Positions 51,363 through 62,627 of a stretch of DNA of 64,000 bases are shown here, in pieces. Every line of letters begins with the position of its first letter. Positions within the stretch are counted from its first letter, which is position 1. The notes under the pieces were generated by a model that saw only the letters and a list, made by a program, of their open reading frames with translations, did not search any database and was not told where the DNA came from. A program made the translations under genes and the position numbers. The DNA comes from Aestuariibacter sp. (GTDB lineage: Bacteria; Pseudomonadota; Gammaproteobacteria; Enterobacterales; Alteromonadaceae), in assembly GCA_017794925.1 (NCBI GenBank), contig CP051238.1:2620179-2684178 (forward strand), written 5' to 3'.

Positions 51363-51417
51363 GATAAAACTTAGTAGAAATCAGCATAAAAATAATGACG
51401 ACAGGAAGGAAACCCAA

Positions 51418-53046
51418 ATGCAAAGACGAGATTTTATTCGATTGGGGGGTGTTGGTATGGCCTCCATGATGCTTCCGGTATCAGGTATCGCCGTATCAGC
51501 CGAACAATTGTTGGATAAGCCAATGGATGTGGCTTACAAAAAAAAGCTGGCTGATATCGCATTGAATGCGGCGAAAGCAAAAGGTGCAACCTATGCAGAC
51601 GCCCGAATTGGCCGCTACCTCAATCAATTCATCACAACGCGTGAAGCGAATGTCGATAATATTGTGAATACCGAGTCAGCTGGCATCGGTATTCGCGTTA
51701 TTGCAAATGGCACCTGGGGATTTGCATCCACGTCAAACATGACGCCTGACAGTGTGGCTAAAACGGCTGAACAAGCCGTTGCGGTGGCAATGGCGAATTC
51801 AAAATTTCAAACCAGCCCTGTTGTGCTTGCTCCGGTAAAAGGCACCGGTGAAGTAAGTTGGCAAACGCCTATTAAAAAGAACGCCATGGAAGTGCCGATT
51901 CAGGAAAAAGTCGAAATGCTGTTAACCGCCAATGATGCGGCAATGAGCAATGGGGCTAACTACATCACTTCTATCCTGTTCCTGGTTAATGAACAAAAAT
52001 ATTTCGCGTCTACTGATGGCTCTTATATTGATCAGGACGTGCATCGTCTGTGGGCGCCGTTCTTTGCCACGGCTGTTGGGAAAAGTGGTTTCAAACAGCG
52101 TAACGGTCTGGGTAACCCGGTAGGAATGGGGTTCGAATACCTGGATGGCAAAGAAGAAGATAAAATTAAAATTAGCGGTGCGAATGTAGGCTATAAAAAC
52201 TCTTACGATTTGGTTGAAGATGCTGCCGCTGCAGGTAAGCAGTTACAAGCCAAACTGAAAGCGCGCTCAGTTGAGCCTGGTAAGTACGACCTGGTACTGG
52301 ACCCGGCGCATTTAATGCTTACCATTCACGAATCAGTGGGTCACCCACTTGAGCTCGATCGGGTATTGGGTTATGAAGCAAACTATGCCGGCACCAGTTT
52401 TGCGACACTCGATAAGTGGCGCAGCGGTAAATTCCAGTATGGTTCAGAAATGGTCAACTTGTTCGCCGACAAAACTCAGGAATATTCACTGGGTAATGTG
52501 GCCTACGATGATGAGGGCGTGAAAACCAAGCAATGGGATCTTGTTAAAGACGGCATTTTAGTTAACTACCAGGCGATTCGCGATCAGGTGCATATGATTG
52601 ACCAAAAAGAGTCGCATGGCTGTTGTTATTCGCAAAGTTGGGCCGATGTTCAGTTTCAGCGTATGCCCAATGTCTCGCTAAAACCTAATGAAAAGGACAT
52701 TTCAGCTGAAGACATCATTAAAGAAGTGGATGATGGTATTTACATTGCGGGCAGGGGCTCATTTTCCATTGATCAGCAGCGCTATAATTTCCAGTTTGGT
52801 GGTCAGCTGTTTTACGAGATCAAAGATGGCAAGATTGTCGACCAAATCGAAGACGTTGCCTATCAATCTAATACCCAGGAATTTTGGAATAACTGCGTAA
52901 AAACCGCGGGTAAATCAGATTATCGACTCGGTGGCTCGTTCTTTGATGGTAAAGGCCAGCCTGCACAGGTAAGCGCGGTTTCTCATGGTTGTGCTACCAC
53001 AAGATTTAATAATGTTAACGTGATCAACACTGCGCGTAACGTGTGA
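51418..53046 (+). CDS. Tat-exported TldD-like metalloprotease
   Basis: 542 residues from the ATG at 51418 (AGGAAGGA upstream); an in-frame TTG at 51361 lies inside the terminator. The N-terminus MQRRDFIRLGGVGMASMM with a following VSA site is a twin-arginine signal (RRDFIRL). The TldD/PmbA fold follows, with the metal-binding HExxxH at 304-309 (HESVGHPLELDR). Known TldD/TldE (PmbA) heterodimers are cytoplasmic and process peptides such as microcin B17 and CcdA; this homologue is longer and appears to be exported folded. Its TldE-like partner follows 29 nt later. Confidence 0.88.
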   Translation: MQRRDFIRLGGVGMASMMLPVSGIAVSAEQLLDKPMDVAYKKKLADIALNAAKAKGATYADARIGRYLNQFITTREANVDNIVNTESAGIGIRVIANGTWGFASTSNMTPDSVAKTAEQAVAVAMANSKFQTSPVVLAPVKGTGEVSWQTPIKKNAMEVPIQEKVEMLLTANDAAMSNGANYITSILFLVNEQKYFASTDGSYIDQDVHRLWAPFFATAVGKSGFKQRNGLGNPVGMGFEYLDGKEEDKIKISGANVGYKNSYDLVEDAAAAGKQLQAKLKARSVEPGKYDLVLDPAHLMLTIHESVGHPLELDRVLGYEANYAGTSFATLDKWRSGKFQYGSEMVNLFADKTQEYSLGNVAYDDEGVKTKQWDLVKDGILVNYQAIRDQVHMIDQKESHGCCYSQSWADVQFQRMPNVSLKPNEKDISAEDIIKEVDDGIYIAGRGSFSIDQQRYNFQFGGQLFYEIKDGKIVDQIEDVAYQSNTQEFWNNCVKTAGKSDYRLGGSFFDGKGQPAQVSAVSHGCATTRFNNVNVINTARNV

Positions 53047-53075
53047 TAGCCAGGAACGAATAGGAATTACAAATC

Positions 53076-54410
53076 ATGACCATGATGACTGAAGAAACAG
53101 CAAAAAAATTGCTGACTAAAGTGCTTTCGTTCTCTAAAGCGGACGAATGTGAATGTAATCTCAATGGCCGCAGCGCTGGTAATATTCGCTACGCCAGAAA
53201 CACCGTCTCAACTGCAGGTGAAGAGAGCGATGTTGTGCTTATTGTCCAGTCGACTTTTGGCAAACGTATGGGCTCTGCGTCTATTAACGAATTTGATGAT
53301 GCGTCGTTAGAGAAGGTTGTTCGACGTTCTGAGCAACTGGCCAAATTGGCGCCTGAAAACAAAGAATATATGCCGGTATTTGGAAAACAGGAATACCTTG
53401 ATACGCCGAGTTATGCGCCATCAACGGCCAGTGTAACACCCGCGGACCGCGCTGATGCAGCCGGTGCGAGCATTATGCCGTCGAAGAAAAACAAAATGGT
53501 TTCCTCAGGTTTTCTTGAAGAAGAAGTGACCTTTGCCGCCATTATGAACAATAAAGGTCTGTTTGCTTACAACACGGCCACCAATGTGGATTTCTCGGTA
53601 ACCATTCGAACTGAGGATGGCAAAGGTTCAGGCTGGGCAAGTCAGGACGTGACCGACGTGAAAAAACTGGATACCGGCAAAGTATCGCAGATTGCTATTC
53701 AGAAAGCCGGTGGTTCTGTAGATGCCAAGGAGATGGAGCCAGGTAAATATACGGTTATTCTTGAGCCTGCCGCCAGTGTGCAATTGTTGGAAAATATGGG
53801 GCGTAACTTTAGTCAGCGAACCGCTGATGAGGGGCGTAGCTTTTTGAGCAACAAGCTTGAGGAGGGGGAAGAAGGTCCGACTAACAAGCTTGGCCAGAAG
53901 ATGTTTGACGAGCGCGTGCACATTTACAGCGACCCTCAGCATCCGGAGGTACCCACAGCGCCGTTTGGTCAGGATGGTTACCCTCGTAAACGTGTTGACT
54001 GGATCAAAGACGGTGTGGTGACCAATATGCCTAATTCACCGTACTGGGCGAAGAAAACCGGCATGCCTTATATTCCGTTTGGCGGTAATATGATCATGGC
54101 TGGTGGCGACGAATCCCTTGAGGATATGATCAAAAATACCCGCCGAGGTGTTTTGGTTACACGGCTTTGGTATATTCGCTCGCTGGATCCACAAACGCTG
54201 TTATATACCGGTTTAACCCGGGATGGCACGTTTTATATTGAAAATGGCAAAATCAAATATCCAATCAAAAACTTCCGGTTTAATGAAAGCCCCATAGTGA
54301 TGCTGAATAACATTGAAGCATTGGGAAAACCGGTAAGAATTAATGGCAATATGATCCCGCCTATGAAGATCCGGGACTTTACCTTCAGCAGTTTATCTGA
54401 CGCGGTATAG
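53076..54410 (+). CDS. TldE/PmbA-like partner protein without signal peptide
   Basis: 444 residues, similar in length to E. coli TldE (450). TldD/PmbA-family features: N-terminal half with NIRYARNTVSTAGEESDVVLIV, central RTEDGKGSGW, C-terminal PFGGNMIMAGGDESLEDMIKNTRRGVLVTRLWYIRSLDP and LFYTGLTRDG-like GLTRDGTFYIENGKI. It lacks the HExxxH zinc motif, as TldE proteins do. The N-terminus (MTMMTEETAKKLL) has no export signal, unlike its TldD-like neighbour, so either it stays inside or it is carried through Tat in complex. Confidence 0.87.
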   Translation: MTMMTEETAKKLLTKVLSFSKADECECNLNGRSAGNIRYARNTVSTAGEESDVVLIVQSTFGKRMGSASINEFDDASLEKVVRRSEQLAKLAPENKEYMPVFGKQEYLDTPSYAPSTASVTPADRADAAGASIMPSKKNKMVSSGFLEEEVTFAAIMNNKGLFAYNTATNVDFSVTIRTEDGKGSGWASQDVTDVKKLDTGKVSQIAIQKAGGSVDAKEMEPGKYTVILEPAASVQLLENMGRNFSQRTADEGRSFLSNKLEEGEEGPTNKLGQKMFDERVHIYSDPQHPEVPTAPFGQDGYPRKRVDWIKDGVVTNMPNSPYWAKKTGMPYIPFGGNMIMAGGDESLEDMIKNTRRGVLVTRLWYIRSLDPQTLLYTGLTRDGTFYIENGKIKYPIKNFRFNESPIVMLNNIEALGKPVRINGNMIPPMKIRDFTFSSLSDAV

Positions 54411-54473
54411 CCTTTTTCTTCACTAACGTCAGGCGTGCCAAAGCGCCTGACGTCGTAATTTGTTTGTCAAACT

Positions 54474-55181
54474 ATGTCATACAGCAGAAGAGCGATTTTA
54501 AAATCCAGTGGTGCCCTGTTTTGTGCTTTGGCGATGCCAAAAGTGGCAAGGGCATTGGAAGGTGCTGATTACGATTTTTACTTTACCCGTTTGAGTTATG
54601 AGTCAGGGGACTGGGAGGTCGACGAGAGAATGCCGGCCAATGTGCTCAATTCGTTAATTGAATACACCAGTTTACGGGTTGATTTAACGGAGCGGATTGT
54701 ACCGCTGTCTGATCCGACTATGTTGACCGCGCCATTTTGCTACATGGCCGGGCATAGGTTGGTACAGTTTAATCAGCAGGAACGAGAGAACTTTAAGCGA
54801 TACGTTGAGAACGGCGGCTTTGTGTTTGTCGATGACTGCAATCATGACATTGATGGTATGTTTGCGCGCACCTTCGAAGCGCAGATGGCCGATATTTTTG
54901 GCCCGCAGGCACTGCAGAAAATCCCCAATGATCATCCACTCTACAGTGCGTTCTTTGAATTCGACGGTCCGCCAAGAACATCCATAGAACTAAATGGGTG
55001 GGGGGATGATTTAGTGCATAACTACCTCAAGGCAATAGAGGTGAACGGCAGAATTGGCGTGCTCTACAGTAACAAAGACTTAGGCTGTGAATGGGATTAC
55101 GACTTCAGAAATAAACGCTGGTTAAAAGTCGATAACACCCGGTTTGCGGTGAATATTGTGGTGTATGCCATGACGGCGTAA
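54474..55181 (+). CDS. DUF4159 protein with Tat-like signal
   Basis: 235 residues. The N-terminus MSYSRRAILKSSGALFCALAMPKVARA is a twin-arginine-type signal (SRRAILK). The remainder matches DUF4159: DFYFTRLSYESGDWEVDERMP, FVENGGFVFVDDCNHD (here YVENGGFVFVDDCNHD) and a C-terminal NIVVYAM. The fold resembles glutamine amidotransferase-like ThuA domains. DUF4159 genes are usually clustered with MoxR/DUF58 genes, as here. The spacing to the TldE-like gene (63 nt) and to moxR (27 nt) allows one transcript. Function unknown. Confidence 0.83.
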   Translation: MSYSRRAILKSSGALFCALAMPKVARALEGADYDFYFTRLSYESGDWEVDERMPANVLNSLIEYTSLRVDLTERIVPLSDPTMLTAPFCYMAGHRLVQFNQQERENFKRYVENGGFVFVDDCNHDIDGMFARTFEAQMADIFGPQALQKIPNDHPLYSAFFEFDGPPRTSIELNGWGDDLVHNYLKAIEVNGRIGVLYSNKDLGCEWDYDFRNKRWLKVDNTRFAVNIVVYAMTA

Positions 55182-55208
55182 GTACGCCACCTGATTAGGA
55201 AAGCAGTT

Positions 55209-56222
55209 TTGGAAACACTGACCCAGCAACAATTACAAGAGTTATTGGCTCGTCTAGAGCAAGTGAGTGATGAAATTGGCAAGGTCATTGTTGGCCAGCA
55301 AACGGTAATTAAACAATTACTAGTTAGCATTCTCGCCGGGGGACATTGTCTGCTAGAAGGCGTGCCCGGGTTGGCCAAAACCCTGATGGTCAGTTCACTG
55401 GCGAAAACGCTGGAACTGGATTTTCAGCGCGTGCAGTTTACGCCCGATTTGATGCCCAGCGATATTATTGGCACCGAGATTTTAGAAACCGATCACGACT
55501 CTGGCAAACGCTTCTTCAAATTCCAGCAAGGGCCAGTATTTACGCAAATTCTGCTGGCTGATGAAATTAACCGTACGCCACCCAAGACACAGGCGGCGCT
55601 ACTGGAAGCGATGCAGGAAAAAGCCATCAGCTACAGCGCTCAACGACACGAATTACCCAAGCCATTTTTTGTATTGGCTACGCAAAACCCGGTAGAACAG
55701 GCCGGCACCTATCCGTTACCAGAGGCGCAATTAGACCGGTTTTTAATGTATGTGTCAGTGGGTTACCCCAGCGCTGAAGACGAGGTGGAAATTTTACGCC
55801 GCACCACGGGCTCACAGCATTCTGAACTGCAAAAAATCCTCAGTGGAGATGACATTATCGTGCTGCAAAAATTGGTGCGTGATGTAGAGATCTCGGAACC
55901 GCTGCTCAGTTATGTCAGTCAGCTTGCCCGTAATACGCGCACCAATACCAATACGCCAAGTGTCAGTGACACGGTTAATCAGTTTGTGCAATGGGGCGCT
56001 GGCCCCCGAGCTGGTCAGGCCCTGGTGCTGTGCGCCAAAGCAAATGCTCTGATTGACGGGCGTTTTGCCGCGACACTGGACGATATTCACGCGGTTGCTT
56101 ACCCGGTACTCAGACACCGGATATTGCTGAATTTTCAGGCCGAAGCACAAAATGTCACGGCCGATCAGGTGATTGGAGCTTTATTAAACGATGTTAAAGC
56201 GCCCGCTAGCCCGTTAAGCTGA
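55209..56222 (+). CDS. MoxR-family AAA+ ATPase
   Basis: 337 residues from a TTG start (AGGA 8 nt upstream); no better start is in frame. AAA+ motifs: Walker A LLEGVPGLAKT, Walker B ILLADEINRTPPKTQAALLEAMQE, sensor 1 VLATQNPVEQAGTYPLPEAQLDRF, and a C-terminal lid. MoxR proteins act as chaperones that assemble or activate VWA/DUF58-type proteins, and the DUF58 gene follows 7 nt later. Confidence 0.94.
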   Translation: METLTQQQLQELLARLEQVSDEIGKVIVGQQTVIKQLLVSILAGGHCLLEGVPGLAKTLMVSSLAKTLELDFQRVQFTPDLMPSDIIGTEILETDHDSGKRFFKFQQGPVFTQILLADEINRTPPKTQAALLEAMQEKAISYSAQRHELPKPFFVLATQNPVEQAGTYPLPEAQLDRFLMYVSVGYPSAEDEVEILRRTTGSQHSELQKILSGDDIIVLQKLVRDVEISEPLLSYVSQLARNTRTNTNTPSVSDTVNQFVQWGAGPRAGQALVLCAKANALIDGRFAATLDDIHAVAYPVLRHRILLNFQAEAQNVTADQVIGALLNDVKAPASPLS

Positions 56223-56229
56223 CAGCGAA

Positions 56230-57153
56230 ATGCATTCGTTAATTGATCCGCTGACATTTTCACGTATTAAAGACCTGCCGCTGGTGGCCAAGACCATCGC
56301 GCAAGGTTTTTTACACGGCTTACATAATAGTGCGCAGCGCGGAACCGGCGTCGAATTCAGTCAGTACCGGGTGTATGAGCCGGGCGATCCATTATCCAGG
56401 GTAGACTGGAAGCTATTTGCGCGGTCAGATCGTTACTTCGTGCGCGAAGCGGAGCGTGAAAGTGACATTAATGTTCATCTTGTTCTGGATGCCAGTGCGT
56501 CGATGCTGATGCAAAGTCGCAAGCCAAAAAAGTCCCAGGCAATTGCAGGGGCTGACAGCATCACAAAGTTAGATTACGGCCGTTATTTGCTGGCCAGTAT
56601 CGCATACCTTGCGCATCAACAGGGCGATGCCGTAGGGCTAATGGGCGTATCTGGTATGCAGGTAGACTTTTTACCTGCACTGAACACCCAGCAGCATTGG
56701 CAAAAGCTCATGTTGCAGCTAGCCCGTATCACCAGTGGCGACGCGTTTCCTGACGTTGATATGATGATTAATCAAATCGCCAGTGTGCGCCAACAGGGCA
56801 TTGTTATTGTGGTGAGCGACTTTTACGAACGGCAGCAGGAGCTGACTGATTTTATGCAGCAGTTGGTGAGTCCCAGAACCGATGTAATTGCTGTTCAACT
56901 GGAAACCCAGGATGAAGTTGAGTTTAACTATTCCGGCCAGATTCGTTTTGAAGATCGTGAAACCGGTGAGCATAAACTGGTCAATGCCAGCCAGGTAAAA
57001 TCCGAGTATTTACACGCCAGGAAAACCTTTAATCATACCCTGGCTAACCAACTGCAAGGTCAACGGATCCAGTTGTTGCGAACCACCATCGAACAGCCTT
57101 TGGATAAAGTGCTTTATGACTTCCTGCTTGCCCGCACTAAGGCGGGTAGGTAA
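56230..57153 (+). CDS. DUF58 protein (VWA-like fold)
   Basis: 307 residues. The DUF58 signature GTGVEFSQYRVYEPGDPLSRVDWKLFARSDRYFVREAERE lies at about residues 35-75 (given in parts here), then a VWA-like domain with DASASM (MIDAS-like). No TM helix, so it is cytosolic. It is the usual partner of MoxR. Its end is followed 19 nt later by the BatA-like gene. Confidence 0.92.
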   Translation: MHSLIDPLTFSRIKDLPLVAKTIAQGFLHGLHNSAQRGTGVEFSQYRVYEPGDPLSRVDWKLFARSDRYFVREAERESDINVHLVLDASASMLMQSRKPKKSQAIAGADSITKLDYGRYLLASIAYLAHQQGDAVGLMGVSGMQVDFLPALNTQQHWQKLMLQLARITSGDAFPDVDMMINQIASVRQQGIVIVVSDFYERQQELTDFMQQLVSPRTDVIAVQLETQDEVEFNYSGQIRFEDRETGEHKLVNASQVKSEYLHARKTFNHTLANQLQGQRIQLLRTTIEQPLDKVLYDFLLARTKAGR

Positions 57154-57172
57154 TGTCAGTGAGTGCCTGGTG

Positions 57173-58321
57173 ATGATGAGTTGGTTAACCACCTATTTTG
57201 CAAGCCCTATAGCGCTGTTAGGTTTGCTGGCCATCAGTATTCCCATCATTATTCATTTGTTGAGTAAAAGCAAAGCCAAACCAGTGCTCTTTGGTCACCT
57301 TGATTTGATCCCATCAGGCAAGCAAAAGCCGGTAACTCAACTGACTATCACACAATGGTTTTTGCTGTTATTGCGAATTTTAATGCTGGTGATCCTGGCG
57401 TTGTTGCTAAGTCAGCCACTGCTGCCAGAGCCGACTTCAGTAAGCCCTCAGCAAACAAGGCTGCTAATCACTTCACAGTGGCTTGAATCTGCCGACAAAG
57501 CGCAGCGCGAAGACCTGCTCGACAGATTAAGTAACGGAGCGCAGGCCCTGTTAGCCGGTCATCCTTCCACATCGCTTAGTGCCGAGCAGATCCAAAACTG
57601 GCAGGTGAGGGAAGACACCAGTAAGCTAATAAATCTTTGGGTCGCTTTAGACGATACGCTAAATAATACGGCCGGCAAGGTTGCCGTTTATCACACTGGG
57701 CAGATTGAACAGTTCAACGGGCCCAGAGCATTACTGACCTCGCAGTCTGACAGAATTGAATGGATGCGGATTGATACGCCTTCTCCTGGTTCAGAGGGTA
57801 GTTCAATTAAACCCATTAGCATCGGTGTTATTGAATCTGACGAGCCTGATATCAATTCACACTGGCAAAGTGCCTTATCGCTGATTAAGCAGTACGGTAT
57901 TAAAACGCTAACATGGCAGAACCAGCCGTCTGAGCAGCAAGCCGACTTCAGTCAGTTTTCGGTATGGATTGATATCAGTGAAATGACGGTCTTCACTCAA
58001 CATTCCTCAGAAGTCGTGCCACTAACACGCGTTAATTCGCCTGACTTTCCTTTGTGGTTTGCAGACCAGCTTCTGCTCATCACCGAACAGCAGGATAAAC
58101 GTGTATCGCCGGTCCTGTCTGCCCAGCAAATTCAGTATCGCGCAGAATTACCTGATAACGAGGCCGCCTCGGGAGTCCCTGCGATGGGTTCTGGTGTTCA
58201 GCGAGACGATCCAGCGCGATCTTCGGTGCCTTGGCTGGCAATGTTACTGGTACTGTTATTTTGCGCTGAGCGACTGGTGAGTGAATATTTTGCGCCTGCT
58301 GGTAAGGAGACTCAGCAGTGA
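57173..58321 (+). CDS. BatA-domain membrane protein
   Basis: 382 residues from the ATG at 57173 (or 381 from 57176); the open frame extends back into the DUF58 gene but without signal features. N-terminal BatA-type segment: a TM helix at about 10-28 (PIALLGLLAISIPIIIHLLS), then KAKPVLFGHLDLI and a second TM (about 62-82). A periplasmic domain follows, and a third TM near residue 360 (WLAMLLVLLFCAERL). It is probably one of the membrane partners of MoxR/DUF58. It overlaps the next gene by 4 nt. Confidence 0.82.
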   Translation: MMSWLTTYFASPIALLGLLAISIPIIIHLLSKSKAKPVLFGHLDLIPSGKQKPVTQLTITQWFLLLLRILMLVILALLLSQPLLPEPTSVSPQQTRLLITSQWLESADKAQREDLLDRLSNGAQALLAGHPSTSLSAEQIQNWQVREDTSKLINLWVALDDTLNNTAGKVAVYHTGQIEQFNGPRALLTSQSDRIEWMRIDTPSPGSEGSSIKPISIGVIESDEPDINSHWQSALSLIKQYGIKTLTWQNQPSEQQADFSQFSVWIDISEMTVFTQHSSEVVPLTRVNSPDFPLWFADQLLLITEQQDKRVSPVLSAQQIQYRAELPDNEAASGVPAMGSGVQRDDPARSSVPWLAMLLVLLFCAERLVSEYFAPAGKETQQ

Positions 58322-60651
58322 ATCCAACGCAGCCATCAGTGCTTCATCGGCTACAGGAGCGAATTAACACGGCGAGGCGGGCGTATGTTCGCCGGCTATC
58401 ATTGCGTATCAGTGCAGTTGCGCTGGCTTTAGGCGGGTTCACTTTTGTTGTTAGCGGGATGGGGTGGCTTGCCACACTGCTGGCTGCACTAACCATTATG
58501 CTGTGGCTTGTTATCGAATTACCACGCGGTGCATTAAAGCAGCTTCATACCGAGACTGTACTGCTGTATCTTAACCAGCAGTTTCCGATCTTACAGCACA
58601 GCGCCCAGTTGTTAACTCAGCCGGTACAAGCAGAGGCTTTGTTAAAAACCTTACAGCGTGAGCGCGCAGAGCAAGCTTTACAGACACTGTTAGACGACCC
58701 TCAAGTGCAGTTATTGCCTGCCTATCCATGGCAGTCCGCGGGTTGGGCAAACCTGTGCGTGGCTGTGTTGATAGGTGCGTTGATTGTGGCTCCCGGCTAT
58801 TTCAATCTTAAGATTGGCCTATCTCCTGAGCAAACAGCCTTACCCGGTAATTCTGAAACATTGCTTCAGATTCAGCCGGCTCAGGCGAGTATTGAACGTA
58901 TTCTGGTCACCATTGCTCCGCCAGCATACACCCGGCAAGCCGATATTCAGCAAACTGGTCTGGATATTAGTGCAGTGAAGGGGAGCACCGTTACGTGGCA
59001 GCTAACGTTAAGCCACCCTGAGCAATCTTACTTCTTACAATTGGCCGGGCAACCGGACATAGCGTTTGAACGACAGGGCGATGACATTGTATTAACTCAG
59101 CAGGTTACACGTTCTGGTGTTTATCATATCAGTGATAAACAGGGGATCATTGGTAGCATTCACAGTATCGCCGTAATAGCAGATGACGAGCCGAAAATTC
59201 GCATTACCGAACCTACAACCACCATTACGACCTTTGCCAAAACGGCACAGCCTGCGCCAGTACTAAGCGCTCAGATTAATGATGACTTTGGTATTAGCAA
59301 GGTTGATATTCTTGCGTCGGTGGCAAAAGGGTCGGGCGAGTCAGTAAAGTTTCGCGATGAGATATTTCAGTTCGACACCATAGAGCGTGAGCCGGGAATG
59401 TGGCGCGTTGAAAAGCAATGGGACTTTAGTCAGCTGGATATGGAGCCCGGCGATGAGATCTACTTTACCGTAAGAGCTTGGGATAATCGCGCGCCAGCGC
59501 CTCAAATGAGTCGCTCGGAAACCAAAATATTACGCTGGCTCGACGATGAAGAAGCCCTGGCGATGGGGGACGGTATTTTAATTGATTTTATGCCGGAGTA
59601 TTTTAAGAGCCAGCGACAAATTATTATTGAAACCAAACAACTGATTGCTGAACGGGACATTTTATCTGATGCTGAGTTTGCCGCGACCTCTCGCTCACTC
59701 GGGCAGTCTCAAAGTGATTTAAAACTCAAGTACGGGCAATACCTGGGTGACGAGTTTGACGATGGCAGTGGTGGTCATCAAATGGAAGACGATGTCGCCT
59801 CGCCGCACGTTGATGTTAAGGACGGTGATCACAACGACGAAGAGGAGCACGATGACAGCCCGCAAGTGGCAGCAGGCAACAATGCTCTGGCCCATCATGA
59901 TCATGGTGCTGAACCTGAATCACACGAGACTGACAAGTCTGGTTATCAACAGGTCATTGAGGCGTATGGCCATTCTCATGGTGATACCGATGTTGGCGTA
60001 ATGAACGCGTTAAGCCCCAAGGCACTAATGAAACGGGCGATTGCCTTTATGTGGGATGCTGAACTTCAGTTGTTACTAGGTGAGCCGGAACGCGCGTTGC
60101 CCCATGAAGAAAACGCCTTAACTTACCTTAACAGGGCGCGAAAAGCTGAGCGAATATACATAAAACGCCTTGGCTTTGAACCGCCACCGGTGACTGAAAA
60201 ACGTCGTTATCAGGGCGACTTGAGCGATATCCTCAGCTATCAGCGTTATCGGGATGCGGATCCTGATGATCCTTACATCAGTCATCTGACACACCTGTTA
60301 AATGTGTTAAACCAGGCCAGGCAAACCATAGCATCCGAAAAGCATGCTGAGGTGGCGCTCGATTCAGACATAGTAGACAGTATTGAATTTTTAAAACCGG
60401 CATTTATTGAGCAGGCTCAGAACCGACCCGCCATGGTAAGCCATGTCGCAGCACTGGAGAAAATGCAGTTGGCGAATCGCCTCTGGGTGCGCGATTGCGG
60501 TGAATGCATGATTCGGTTGTATAACGAGTTATGGCAACAACTGGAACCGTTAGCAATACCCGGTCAGTCAAATTCCGGCTACCGTCCGGTCAATCCGATG
60601 GTGAAAGCCTATAGTGAACATTTGTTCAATTCTGACAAGGCGCAACCATGA
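58318..60651 (+). CDS. DUF4175-like membrane protein with a His/Asp-rich insert
   Basis: 777 residues, GTG start with AAGGAG upstream. Two TM helices lie at about 30-66 and one at 142-162, followed by a long extracytoplasmic region that resembles DUF4175 proteins (immunoglobulin-like strand segments, DDFGISKVDILASV, DEIYFTVRAWDN). Residues about 478-558 form a very acidic insert with ten His (487-554), which looks like a flexible metal-binding linker. The C-terminal third is helical. It is coupled to its neighbours on both sides by 4-nt overlaps. Function unknown. Confidence 0.8.
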   Translation: MNPTQPSVLHRLQERINTARRAYVRRLSLRISAVALALGGFTFVVSGMGWLATLLAALTIMLWLVIELPRGALKQLHTETVLLYLNQQFPILQHSAQLLTQPVQAEALLKTLQRERAEQALQTLLDDPQVQLLPAYPWQSAGWANLCVAVLIGALIVAPGYFNLKIGLSPEQTALPGNSETLLQIQPAQASIERILVTIAPPAYTRQADIQQTGLDISAVKGSTVTWQLTLSHPEQSYFLQLAGQPDIAFERQGDDIVLTQQVTRSGVYHISDKQGIIGSIHSIAVIADDEPKIRITEPTTTITTFAKTAQPAPVLSAQINDDFGISKVDILASVAKGSGESVKFRDEIFQFDTIEREPGMWRVEKQWDFSQLDMEPGDEIYFTVRAWDNRAPAPQMSRSETKILRWLDDEEALAMGDGILIDFMPEYFKSQRQIIIETKQLIAERDILSDAEFAATSRSLGQSQSDLKLKYGQYLGDEFDDGSGGHQMEDDVASPHVDVKDGDHNDEEEHDDSPQVAAGNNALAHHDHGAEPESHETDKSGYQQVIEAYGHSHGDTDVGVMNALSPKALMKRAIAFMWDAELQLLLGEPERALPHEENALTYLNRARKAERIYIKRLGFEPPPVTEKRRYQGDLSDILSYQRYRDADPDDPYISHLTHLLNVLNQARQTIASEKHAEVALDSDIVDSIEFLKPAFIEQAQNRPAMVSHVAALEKMQLANRLWVRDCGECMIRLYNELWQQLEPLAIPGQSNSGYRPVNPMVKAYSEHLFNSDKAQP

Positions 60652-62627
60652 ACAGCTATATGAGTGAGACTGTCCATATCGAACTGCTCGGCCGGCTACC
60701 CTCGTCATGGTTACTGCCTCTTGCCATCATCTGTTTCCTTTGTGGCGTGGTTTCTCTGGGGTTAGTGTTTAACCGTCTCAAACTGCGCAAAGGCCGCTTA
60801 GTGCTCGTTACCGGCCTTAACCTGCTAGCCTGGTTAATGCTAATTGCGATACTGAGCCCTGTACAACTGCGTGATGACGAACCGCCTGAAACCGTTTTGG
60901 TGACCTCCAGTGCATTGCTCCTAAGTGAAGCTTTGTTTGACGACATTAAGCCGGACGCATCCTTGTGGTTTACCCAGGATTCCTGGTTAAGGCTCTCGCA
61001 AACGAGTTGGTTCAAGCAATTGAACATCCAGCGCCCGAACATTGTGCGTGAACCGGAAGACATTATTTGGGCGGAGCCTCAATTGCAGCATCTTCGGGTA
61101 GTGGGCGATGGCCTGACGGCGCAACAATGGCAACGATTTACCCAGCGAAAACCTGACGAGTCGTCAGCTATGAAGGTTTCCCTGGACGACGTGAAAACCG
61201 TCACCGGGCCGGTGTCTATGCGATGGCACCGGCGGCTAACCCGCGGTCAGTGGCAGCATGTCAGTGGCATGTTACAAGTTGCGAAAGACCAGGCCGAAGG
61301 CAACCTGCAGCAAACCTTGTATCAGGTGCAGCTTAAGGATCCGGCGGGGCAGATTGTGGCACAGCAAACTGTGCGTAACGGCGAGGCGTTTGATTTGGTG
61401 GCTAACGTCAAAACCGAAGGCCTGTGGTTATATCAATTACAGCTTTTTAACGCCTTGAGCGATCAACCTGTTGCTGATGAAACCGTGGCTTTTGAGGTGG
61501 CGCGCCCAACGCTGGCAAAACTCCTTATTCGGCAATCTGCCCCGTCATTTGAAACGCGGCATTTAAAAAACTGGGCAGTTGACCAAGGAGCACAAGTCAC
61601 AGTTGAAACCCAAATCAGTAAAAAGCGCTATATTTCAGAACACGCCAATTATCCTCAGGGTGAGCGCAGTGAGAACGACGCCGCAAAAGTGGATTCACTG
61701 GATACGCTCAGTGTACTGAACCAATATGATATGGTGATCATGGATAGTCGAAGCCTGATGAACCTGACTGACAGCCAGCAAGGGAATTTGGAGAGTGCGG
61801 TTAAGGGCGGCTTGGGGTTGCTGGTTATTGGTGATTCAACACTGTTCACTGAGAGCAACATGCCAGCCTTGCTGAACGCTTTTCAGATAAGTCGTAATGA
61901 AACCAGTGAGAGCGACCAACGTTTATTGACCTGGCAATTTGATCGAGTCGGGGAGCCCCTGAATGTCTTACCGGCCGAGATAGCGACCCGTAACGGGTTT
62001 AGTTTGGTGCGCGGCACTGATGGGCGGGTGGTTGTACCTGGCACGTCTTATGGTTTGGGTAAGGTAGCGATAAGCCTGACGAATCAAACGCATCAATGGC
62101 GGACCGCCGGGCTGGCGCCGCTGTTTAGTCGACACTGGCACTATCTGATTGAAACGCTGGCTCGCCAATCAAGCGCAATGTATGTGCTTCCGACAGAGGA
62201 TGGGCACCTGACGCAGGTAAGACAACCATTGCCGCAATGTTTTGCTGCCAATGCCGCTTTGCAAAGCGACATCCATGCTTATTCGTTTAATTATCAGGGG
62301 GAAGGGAATATCCCGATAGAACTATCGCCTCGGGTTGATGAGGTTAACCAGAATCTTGCCTGTAGTACGGTTTATCCGGCTTATTCTGGCTGGCAGCATA
62401 CTCACTTATCAAACTCAGGTGAAACCGTAACCCAGTCGTTCTACGTGTATAAAAACAATGATTGGAAGGCATGGCAACAGCAATTAAAGCAACGTGCCGG
62501 GCAGCGGATACTTCGTACTAATCCGGTAACAGCCTCCCACGCTGTATGGTCAGAACTTTCGCTCTGGCCATTCTGGTGGGGCCTGTTGCTGATTTGTTTG
62601 TTACTTTGGATTGAACGTAAATTTTAA
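60648..62627 (+). CDS. Large membrane protein with glutamine amidotransferase-like domain
   Basis: 659 residues. Two N-terminal TM helices (about 20-38 and 50-70), an extracytoplasmic beta-rich region, and a ThuA/GATase-like segment (about 365-480: YDMVIMDSRSLMNL, GLGLLVIGDSTLFTE, FSLVRGTDGRVVVPGTSYGLGKVAIS), ending in a C-terminal TM (WPFWWGLLLICLLLWIERKF). This architecture is common at the end of MoxR/DUF58/BatA clusters. The ATG overlaps the upstream stop (ATGA). Exact role unknown. It converges with the yehS-like gene 6 nt away. Confidence 0.8.
   Translation: MNSYMSETVHIELLGRLPSSWLLPLAIICFLCGVVSLGLVFNRLKLRKGRLVLVTGLNLLAWLMLIAILSPVQLRDDEPPETVLVTSSALLLSEALFDDIKPDASLWFTQDSWLRLSQTSWFKQLNIQRPNIVREPEDIIWAEPQLQHLRVVGDGLTAQQWQRFTQRKPDESSAMKVSLDDVKTVTGPVSMRWHRRLTRGQWQHVSGMLQVAKDQAEGNLQQTLYQVQLKDPAGQIVAQQTVRNGEAFDLVANVKTEGLWLYQLQLFNALSDQPVADETVAFEVARPTLAKLLIRQSAPSFETRHLKNWAVDQGAQVTVETQISKKRYISEHANYPQGERSENDAAKVDSLDTLSVLNQYDMVIMDSRSLMNLTDSQQGNLESAVKGGLGLLVIGDSTLFTESNMPALLNAFQISRNETSESDQRLLTWQFDRVGEPLNVLPAEIATRNGFSLVRGTDGRVVVPGTSYGLGKVAISLTNQTHQWRTAGLAPLFSRHWHYLIETLARQSSAMYVLPTEDGHLTQVRQPLPQCFAANAALQSDIHAYSFNYQGEGNIPIELSPRVDEVNQNLACSTVYPAYSGWQHTHLSNSGETVTQSFYVYKNNDWKAWQQQLKQRAGQRILRTNPVTASHAVWSELSLWPFWWGLLLICLLLWIERKF

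Follow-up and report, generated by a model that had tools for sequence, protein, structure and literature searches.

A second TldD/TldE-type peptidase in Aestuariibacter with a Tat-type signal on TldD only: a candidate for hitchhiker export

Introduction

A stretch of 64,000 nucleotides from Aestuariibacter sp. (contig CP051238.1, positions 2,620,179 to 2,684,178), referred to below as the window, encodes a TldD-like metallopeptidase that begins with a twin-arginine translocation (Tat)-type signal, and next to it a TldE-like partner that carries none. If the first protein is exported, how would the second reach the same side of the membrane? We hypothesize, at odds of roughly three to one in favor, that the two constitute a second, exported TldD/TldE peptidase, which would pass through the Tat system as a folded heterodimer on the TldD signal alone (hitchhiker export). 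Tat export of TldD with TldE carried along was also the interpretation given in a preliminary description of this locus, and the sequence comparisons reported here support it.

In E. coli, TldD/TldE cuts a microcin leader before the toxin is exported (PMC5810440). Known cases of hitchhiker Tat export are hydrogenases and formate dehydrogenases (PMC10924467).

The TldD-like protein and its N-terminus

The elements on which the argument rests are the following.

51403..51409, + strand: AGGAAGG, ribosome-binding-site-like element 8 nt upstream of the ATG, read directly
51418..53046, + strand: TldD-like metallopeptidase, 542 aa (Pfam PF01523, PF19290 and PF19289 above cut-off; PDB relative 5nj5, E. 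coli TldD)
51418..51501, + strand: Tat-type signal peptide, residues 1-28, RR at 3-4 (from the sequence and motif conservation; putative cleavage after VSA)
52327..52344, + strand: HExxxH metal-binding motif, residues 304-309, HESVGH (H, E and H aligned across all classes)
53076..54410, + strand: TldE-like partner, 444 aa, without signal peptide and without HExxxH (Pfam; clade comparison)

Both window proteins contain all three PmbA_TldD domains above the curated Pfam cut-offs. The TldD-like protein stays below the NCBIfam equivalog cut-offs for E. coli TldD (PRK10735; 66.7 against 513 bits) and archaeal TldD (NF040952; 127.5 against 635 bits), and it shares 28% identity with the ordinary TldD of the same genome (residues 84-491). 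Ordinary tldD and pmbA genes lie near 1,383,355 and 1,385,431 of that genome, which has four family members in all; the window pair is therefore a second TldD/TldE system. The presence of this ordinary pair elsewhere in the genome goes beyond the preliminary description, as do an aspartate in the metal site and the conserved operon discussed below.

The N-terminal sequence of the window TldD is MQRRDFIRLGGVGMASMMLPVSGIAVSAEQ. It starts with MQRRDFIRL and reads MQRRDFIRLGGVGMASMMLPVSGIAVSA up to the putative cleavage site after VSA, followed by EQ; the signal is probably cut there. By our own rule, the window TldD displays the pattern of Tat substrates, in which a moderately hydrophobic stretch comes after a twin-arginine motif. 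The RR-containing start at 51418 is well supported, because AGGAAGG precedes the ATG by 8 nt.

A scan of named genomes returned at least 571 relatives, the best 80 of which gave 79 loci (52 from Bacteroidota, 26 from Pseudomonadota and 1 from Chlorobiota). These loci contain 116 TldD open reading frames scoring above 700 bits, and 113 of them have an RRx-hydrophobic pattern near the start; of the others, one (L101) is truncated where its contig stops, and two (L133) have R-K instead. The RR motif and the hydrophobic stretch ending in VSA, both noticed in the preliminary description, were thus borne out, and we reject a chance RR motif or a wrong start codon on account of the conservation of the motif and the Shine-Dalgarno sequence. 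The HExxxH motif placed at residues 304-309 by the same description is indeed read there; it is kept in 116/116 TldD homologues and in none of 106 TldE proteins from the 79 named loci.

Signal on TldD and none on TldE across the clade

Signals were called on all loci pooled after removal of duplicates, comprising the 79 named loci and two genome samples. A first, stricter rule misclassed L163 through the choice of start and missed some signals of the general secretory (Sec) type; the counts below come from a second rule unless stated otherwise. Among 151 classed TldD proteins of the clade to which the window protein belongs, 144 are Tat-type, three have RR with a more hydrophobic core, and four are cut off. 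All 147 complete N-termini therefore carry a twin-arginine-type signal (140 with strict RR and 7 with R-K).

The partner, whose N-terminus in the window is MTMMTEETAKK, had been described as signal-less. The clade agrees with this reading: 0/140 complete TldE N-termini carry a signal (one more is cut off). At several loci, L064, L069, L071 and L117 among them, an upstream extension of TldE is impossible, since a stop codon lies no more than one codon from the start. The preliminary description had further proposed checking whether Tat-type TldD homologues always adjoin a signal-less TldE. This comparison was run, and the partner is signal-less in 124/124 adjacent pairs with a complete clade TldD; the 23 other complete TldDs have no partner in the sequence examined.

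With the first rule, 43 of 44 ordinary TldDs were signal-less, and the exception (L167) is a member of a second Tat-type group. The second rule called L051 and L052 positive among 43 ordinary TldDs, besides the true L167; we judge these two calls false because upstream start codons were used. The eight signal-less relatives examined (groups N, M and O) lack the signal pattern.

These counts bear on a different explanation, in which both proteins are cytoplasmic: the N-terminal RR stretch would face the membrane or have a regulatory role, or translation would begin downstream of it. Met14, Met17 and Met18 of the window TldD are possible downstream starts. The well-placed Shine-Dalgarno sequence before the ATG at 51418, the presence of the pattern in every complete clade member and its absence from the eight signal-less relatives argue against this explanation, and we consider it very improbable.

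A variant of co-export is that the pair is exported and the signal stays uncleaved, tethering the dimer to the periplasmic side of the inner membrane. Inspected by eye, Bacteroidota members often have no clear AxA site after the hydrophobic core, which would suit such an anchor, but proteobacterial members have AIAA- or VSA-type sites. We regard the anchored form as unlikely.

Other signal-bearing groups

Two further groups with N-terminal signals, B and C, came from one of the two genome samples, which covers the phylum of G337; this Galbibacter genome (Bacteroidota) carries the gene. Group B is close to ordinary TldD, with Cys as the third metal ligand and Tat-type N-termini, and its PmbA partners are signal-less in 6/6 pairs. 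The loci concerned are L165-L168, L170 and L171, each with an ordinary-type TldD, a Tat-type signal, a signal-less PmbA and the Cys ligand. One further protein, L182, was scored as group B, yet it is signal-less and takes a different position in the tree described below.

The divergent group C has open frames of 542 to 1153 codons (median 595, counted between stops), and most of its HExxxH motifs read HEIFGH. A C-terminal TldD domain was recognized by Pfam in the group C proteins tested, two TldDs and two partners. At L202-L211 and L222-L238, these divergent TldD/TldE proteins have Sec-type signals on both subunits. By our rule, 21/22 TldD-like proteins and 19/20 partners have a Sec-type N-terminus; in three of the former and two of the latter, an RR- or KR-like pair precedes a strongly hydrophobic core. 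In the two uncalled proteins, L222 (TldD-like) and L237 (partner), the hydrophobic start is interrupted by one charged residue. The partner bears a signal in 13/13 adjacent group C pairs; nine other group C TldDs have no partner in the sequence examined. Judging from these N-termini, group C is apparently another exported TldD/TldE form.

A partner signal is thus found only where export looks Sec-type and is missing where it looks Tat-type, as folded co-export predicts. A tree of 64 catalytic subunits recovers the window clade as one group (support 97) and group C as another (support 100), with the group B sequences nested in the ordinary TldD branch. The signal state changes at least four times on this tree, as estimated by a quick method and with long branches flagged. 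No Sec-type group was seen among the matches listed for 299 Pseudomonadota genomes, which were mostly of ordinary TldD length and were not classed singly.

Pairing of the two subunits

At L107 the TldD and TldE genes share one frame, and reading the stop as a residue joins both proteins into one chain through a linker of about 42 residues. AlphaFold2 was run on TldD-TldE read-through chains (36 rows) and gave a predicted template modeling score (pTM) of 0.78 and a mean predicted local distance difference test score (pLDDT) of 77.2 over 1000 residues. For comparison, TldE joined to the neighboring DUF4159 gene (L134) gave a pTM of 0.61 and a pLDDT of 77.6 over 696 residues. We estimated from the residue share that a single placed lobe would reach a pTM of about 0.5 for TldD with TldE and about 0.64 for TldE with DUF4159. 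The first observed value lies well above its estimate and the second close to it, which points to a defined arrangement for TldD with TldE but not for TldE with DUF4159; a firm contact between DUF4159 and TldE is accordingly unsupported. The joined TldD-TldE model resembles E. coli TldD and several TldE structures. The model lends support, short of proof, to the pairing of the subunits.

Pairing matters for the possibility that TldD is exported alone as a homodimer, with TldE left behind in the cytoplasm, where it might assist folding or proof-reading and let go before export. An active TldD homodimer of Sulfolobus, from a report cited in PMC5810440, offers a precedent, and TldD genes outnumber TldE genes in 10/79 loci, some of which are truncated where the contig or locus stops. 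Against this stand the dependence of E. coli TldD on TldE for activity (PMC5810440), the fairly confident joined model and the group C partners, which seem bound for the same side as their TldD because they bear a signal in every adjacent pair. We find export of TldD alone quite improbable.

The metal site

52945..52947, + strand: Asp510, at the place of the E. coli metal ligand Cys454 (from the alignment; Cys in relatives)

The zinc ligands of E. coli TldD are His262, His267 and Cys454, and Asp can replace the Cys ligand in some family members (PMC5810440). For this latter reason we keep the window protein in the family although it lacks the cysteine. Asp occupies the position in 148/148 clade sequences with a residue there (five are gapped) and, without exception, in the first set of 116. 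The aligned residue is Cys in each of the eight signal-less relatives (groups N, M and O). For ordinary TldD and groups B and C, the automatic alignment was shifted by two columns, and the Cys was taken from the CGK or CGA motif.

The operon

The TldD and TldE genes are followed by six co-directional genes.

54474..55181, + strand: DUF4159 protein with its own Tat-type N-terminus, MSYSRRAILKSS (Pfam PF13709; N-terminus comparison)
55209..56222, + strand: MoxR-type AAA+ ATPase (Pfam PF07726, PF17863)
56230..57153, + strand: DUF58 protein (Pfam PF01882)
57116..58321, + strand: BatA-like membrane protein with a two-anchor N-terminus (Pfam PF07584, TIGR02226)
58318..60651, + strand: 777-aa protein with hydrophobic N-terminal segments (from synteny; no Pfam family above cut-off)
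60648..62627, + strand: membrane-type protein, 659 aa, overlapping the stop codon of the preceding gene (from the open reading frame list; no Pfam family above cut-off)

The last of these, the eighth co-directional gene, is the probable end of the operon. The co-directional MoxR, DUF58 and Bat-type genes of the window place it among the MoxR-von Willebrand factor A (vWA) envelope operons. DUF4159, MoxR and DUF58 genes lie 3′ of TldD on the same strand in 61 of the 71 loci with room for them (eight loci are too short), and BatA-like genes and homologues of the 777-aa protein occur downstream in many loci.

More than one TldD is present in 31/79 loci, as two or three tandem copies and often with TldE copies (L072, L076, L082, L106, L112, L123, L133 and others). 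Downstream of the TldE gene and ahead of the DUF4159 gene (54426-54453) there is a strong terminator-like hairpin of 11 pairs; such matches are no commoner in the region than in shuffled sequence. The hairpin could lower the expression of the downstream genes.

By our rule, DUF4159 proteins carry a signal in 13/15 Gammaproteobacteria, 0/9 Betaproteobacteria and 1/39 Bacteroidota, the single case in the latter being doubtful. The signal-less ones may either differ in cell location or travel with a partner as well. We could speculate further that TldD serves as the export vehicle for TldE everywhere and additionally for DUF4159 in Bacteroidota and Betaproteobacteria, and that, in both phyla, MoxR/DUF58/BatA feeds or controls a periplasmic peptide-destroying machine from inside; we consider this extended scheme unlikely.

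Distribution

A close copy of the gene is found in 3/24 genomes of the window's genus (G000 included). The Pseudomonadota sample has a match below 1e-200 in 9/299 genomes, and a signal-less relative at 40% is present in a further genome (G223); the sample from the phylum of G337 has a match below 1e-100 in 23/247 genomes, G337 counted. Among the matches listed, the closest named record is from Alteromonas lipolytica (99%), and the Bacteroidota members are 64-69% identical to the window TldD. This identity range and the patchy distribution suggest horizontal spread.

The block 51418-62627 has a nadA-like upstream neighbor in the window and another frame there in L006 (L005 and L006 compared). 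Together with the patchiness within the genus, the differing neighbor suggests a mobile gene block. TatC was found in 49/49 searched genomes with the clade, drawn from the 79 loci.

Relation to known systems

The window pair resembles E. coli TldD/TldE (PmbA; PDB 5nj5) in fold, Pfam domains, paired genes and an HExxxH on TldD only. It differs in its low identity, the Asp in place of Cys454, the Tat-type signal on TldD and the MoxR/DUF58/BatA gene order. With the hydrogenase and formate dehydrogenase hitchhikers it shares a two-subunit enzyme with a Tat signal on one subunit (PMC10924467); unlike them, it is a TldD/E peptidase and not a redox enzyme, and we infer its co-export from sequence.

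Bat-type operons with MoxR have been linked to envelope defects in Rhizobium (PMC5700661). The Bat operon of Bacteroides and cmdA-D (RL3499-RL3502) of Rhizobium likewise combine a MoxR ATPase, DUF58 and a BatA-type protein, but the window operon is headed by TldD/TldE and DUF4159, neither of which is mentioned for those operons in the available part of PMC5700661. A transcriptome of S. maltophilia includes an uncharacterized operon that encodes a MoxR-like ATPase and a putative protease along with two TldD proteins; expression of some of its genes is reduced in biofilms (PMC7688217). Its gene content fits the window operon by description only, and the available part of that source gives no signal or export analysis.

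No description of a Tat-exported TldD/TldE was found in the open-access literature searched, most subscription journals lying outside it. In open-access full texts, seen in part, TldD or PmbA and twin-arginine are co-mentioned only at separate places. DUF4159 appears alongside neither TldD/PmbA nor MoxR/DUF58 among the matches listed in the open-access literature.

Proposed mechanism

We propose that folding of TldD, metal uptake and pairing with TldE all occur in the cytoplasm, and that the folded heterodimer would then cross the inner membrane via the Tat machinery, using the TldD signal only, which is probably removed after VSA. In the periplasm, a closed-shell dimer may cut unfolded peptides at a His, His, Asp metal site, as opposed to His, His, Cys. 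The exported pair could work with the envelope-associated MoxR/DUF58/BatA/DUF4159 module of its operon.

Several points weigh against this proposal. Signals were called by our own written rule and not by TatP or SignalP, and the second rule was written after the misses of the first had been seen. The Tat/Sec contrast amounts to about three independent groups and not to 143 pairs, since pairs within a clade share descent. The AlphaFold2 chain consists of two genes joined via an untranslated linker and is no true complex prediction. The MoxR module is not 3′ of TldD in 10/71 loci, and L133 has MoxR and DUF58 upstream. The Asp ligand was considered as a general mark of an oxidizing compartment and rejected: groups B and C, which bear signals, keep Cys, so that Asp marks the window clade and not export. 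Finally, the presence of TatC is uninformative as an export test, since 246/247 sampled genomes from the phylum of G337 have TatC.

Significance

If the proposal is true, a peptidase known from intracellular toxin maturation would also serve the cell envelope, and do so across the whole clade. Should TldD carry several passengers, both the compartment and the export mode would be new for the TldD/E family. The contrast between Tat and Sec represents a natural experiment, with a partner signal where the subunits would be exported singly and no such signal where the pair could move as a folded unit. It opens hitchhiker export to direct testing in a simple system of two genes that are not redox enzymes. 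From the sequences compared, the pattern of a signal on one half, with the partner seemingly riding along, appears to be kept in many bacteria of two phyla.

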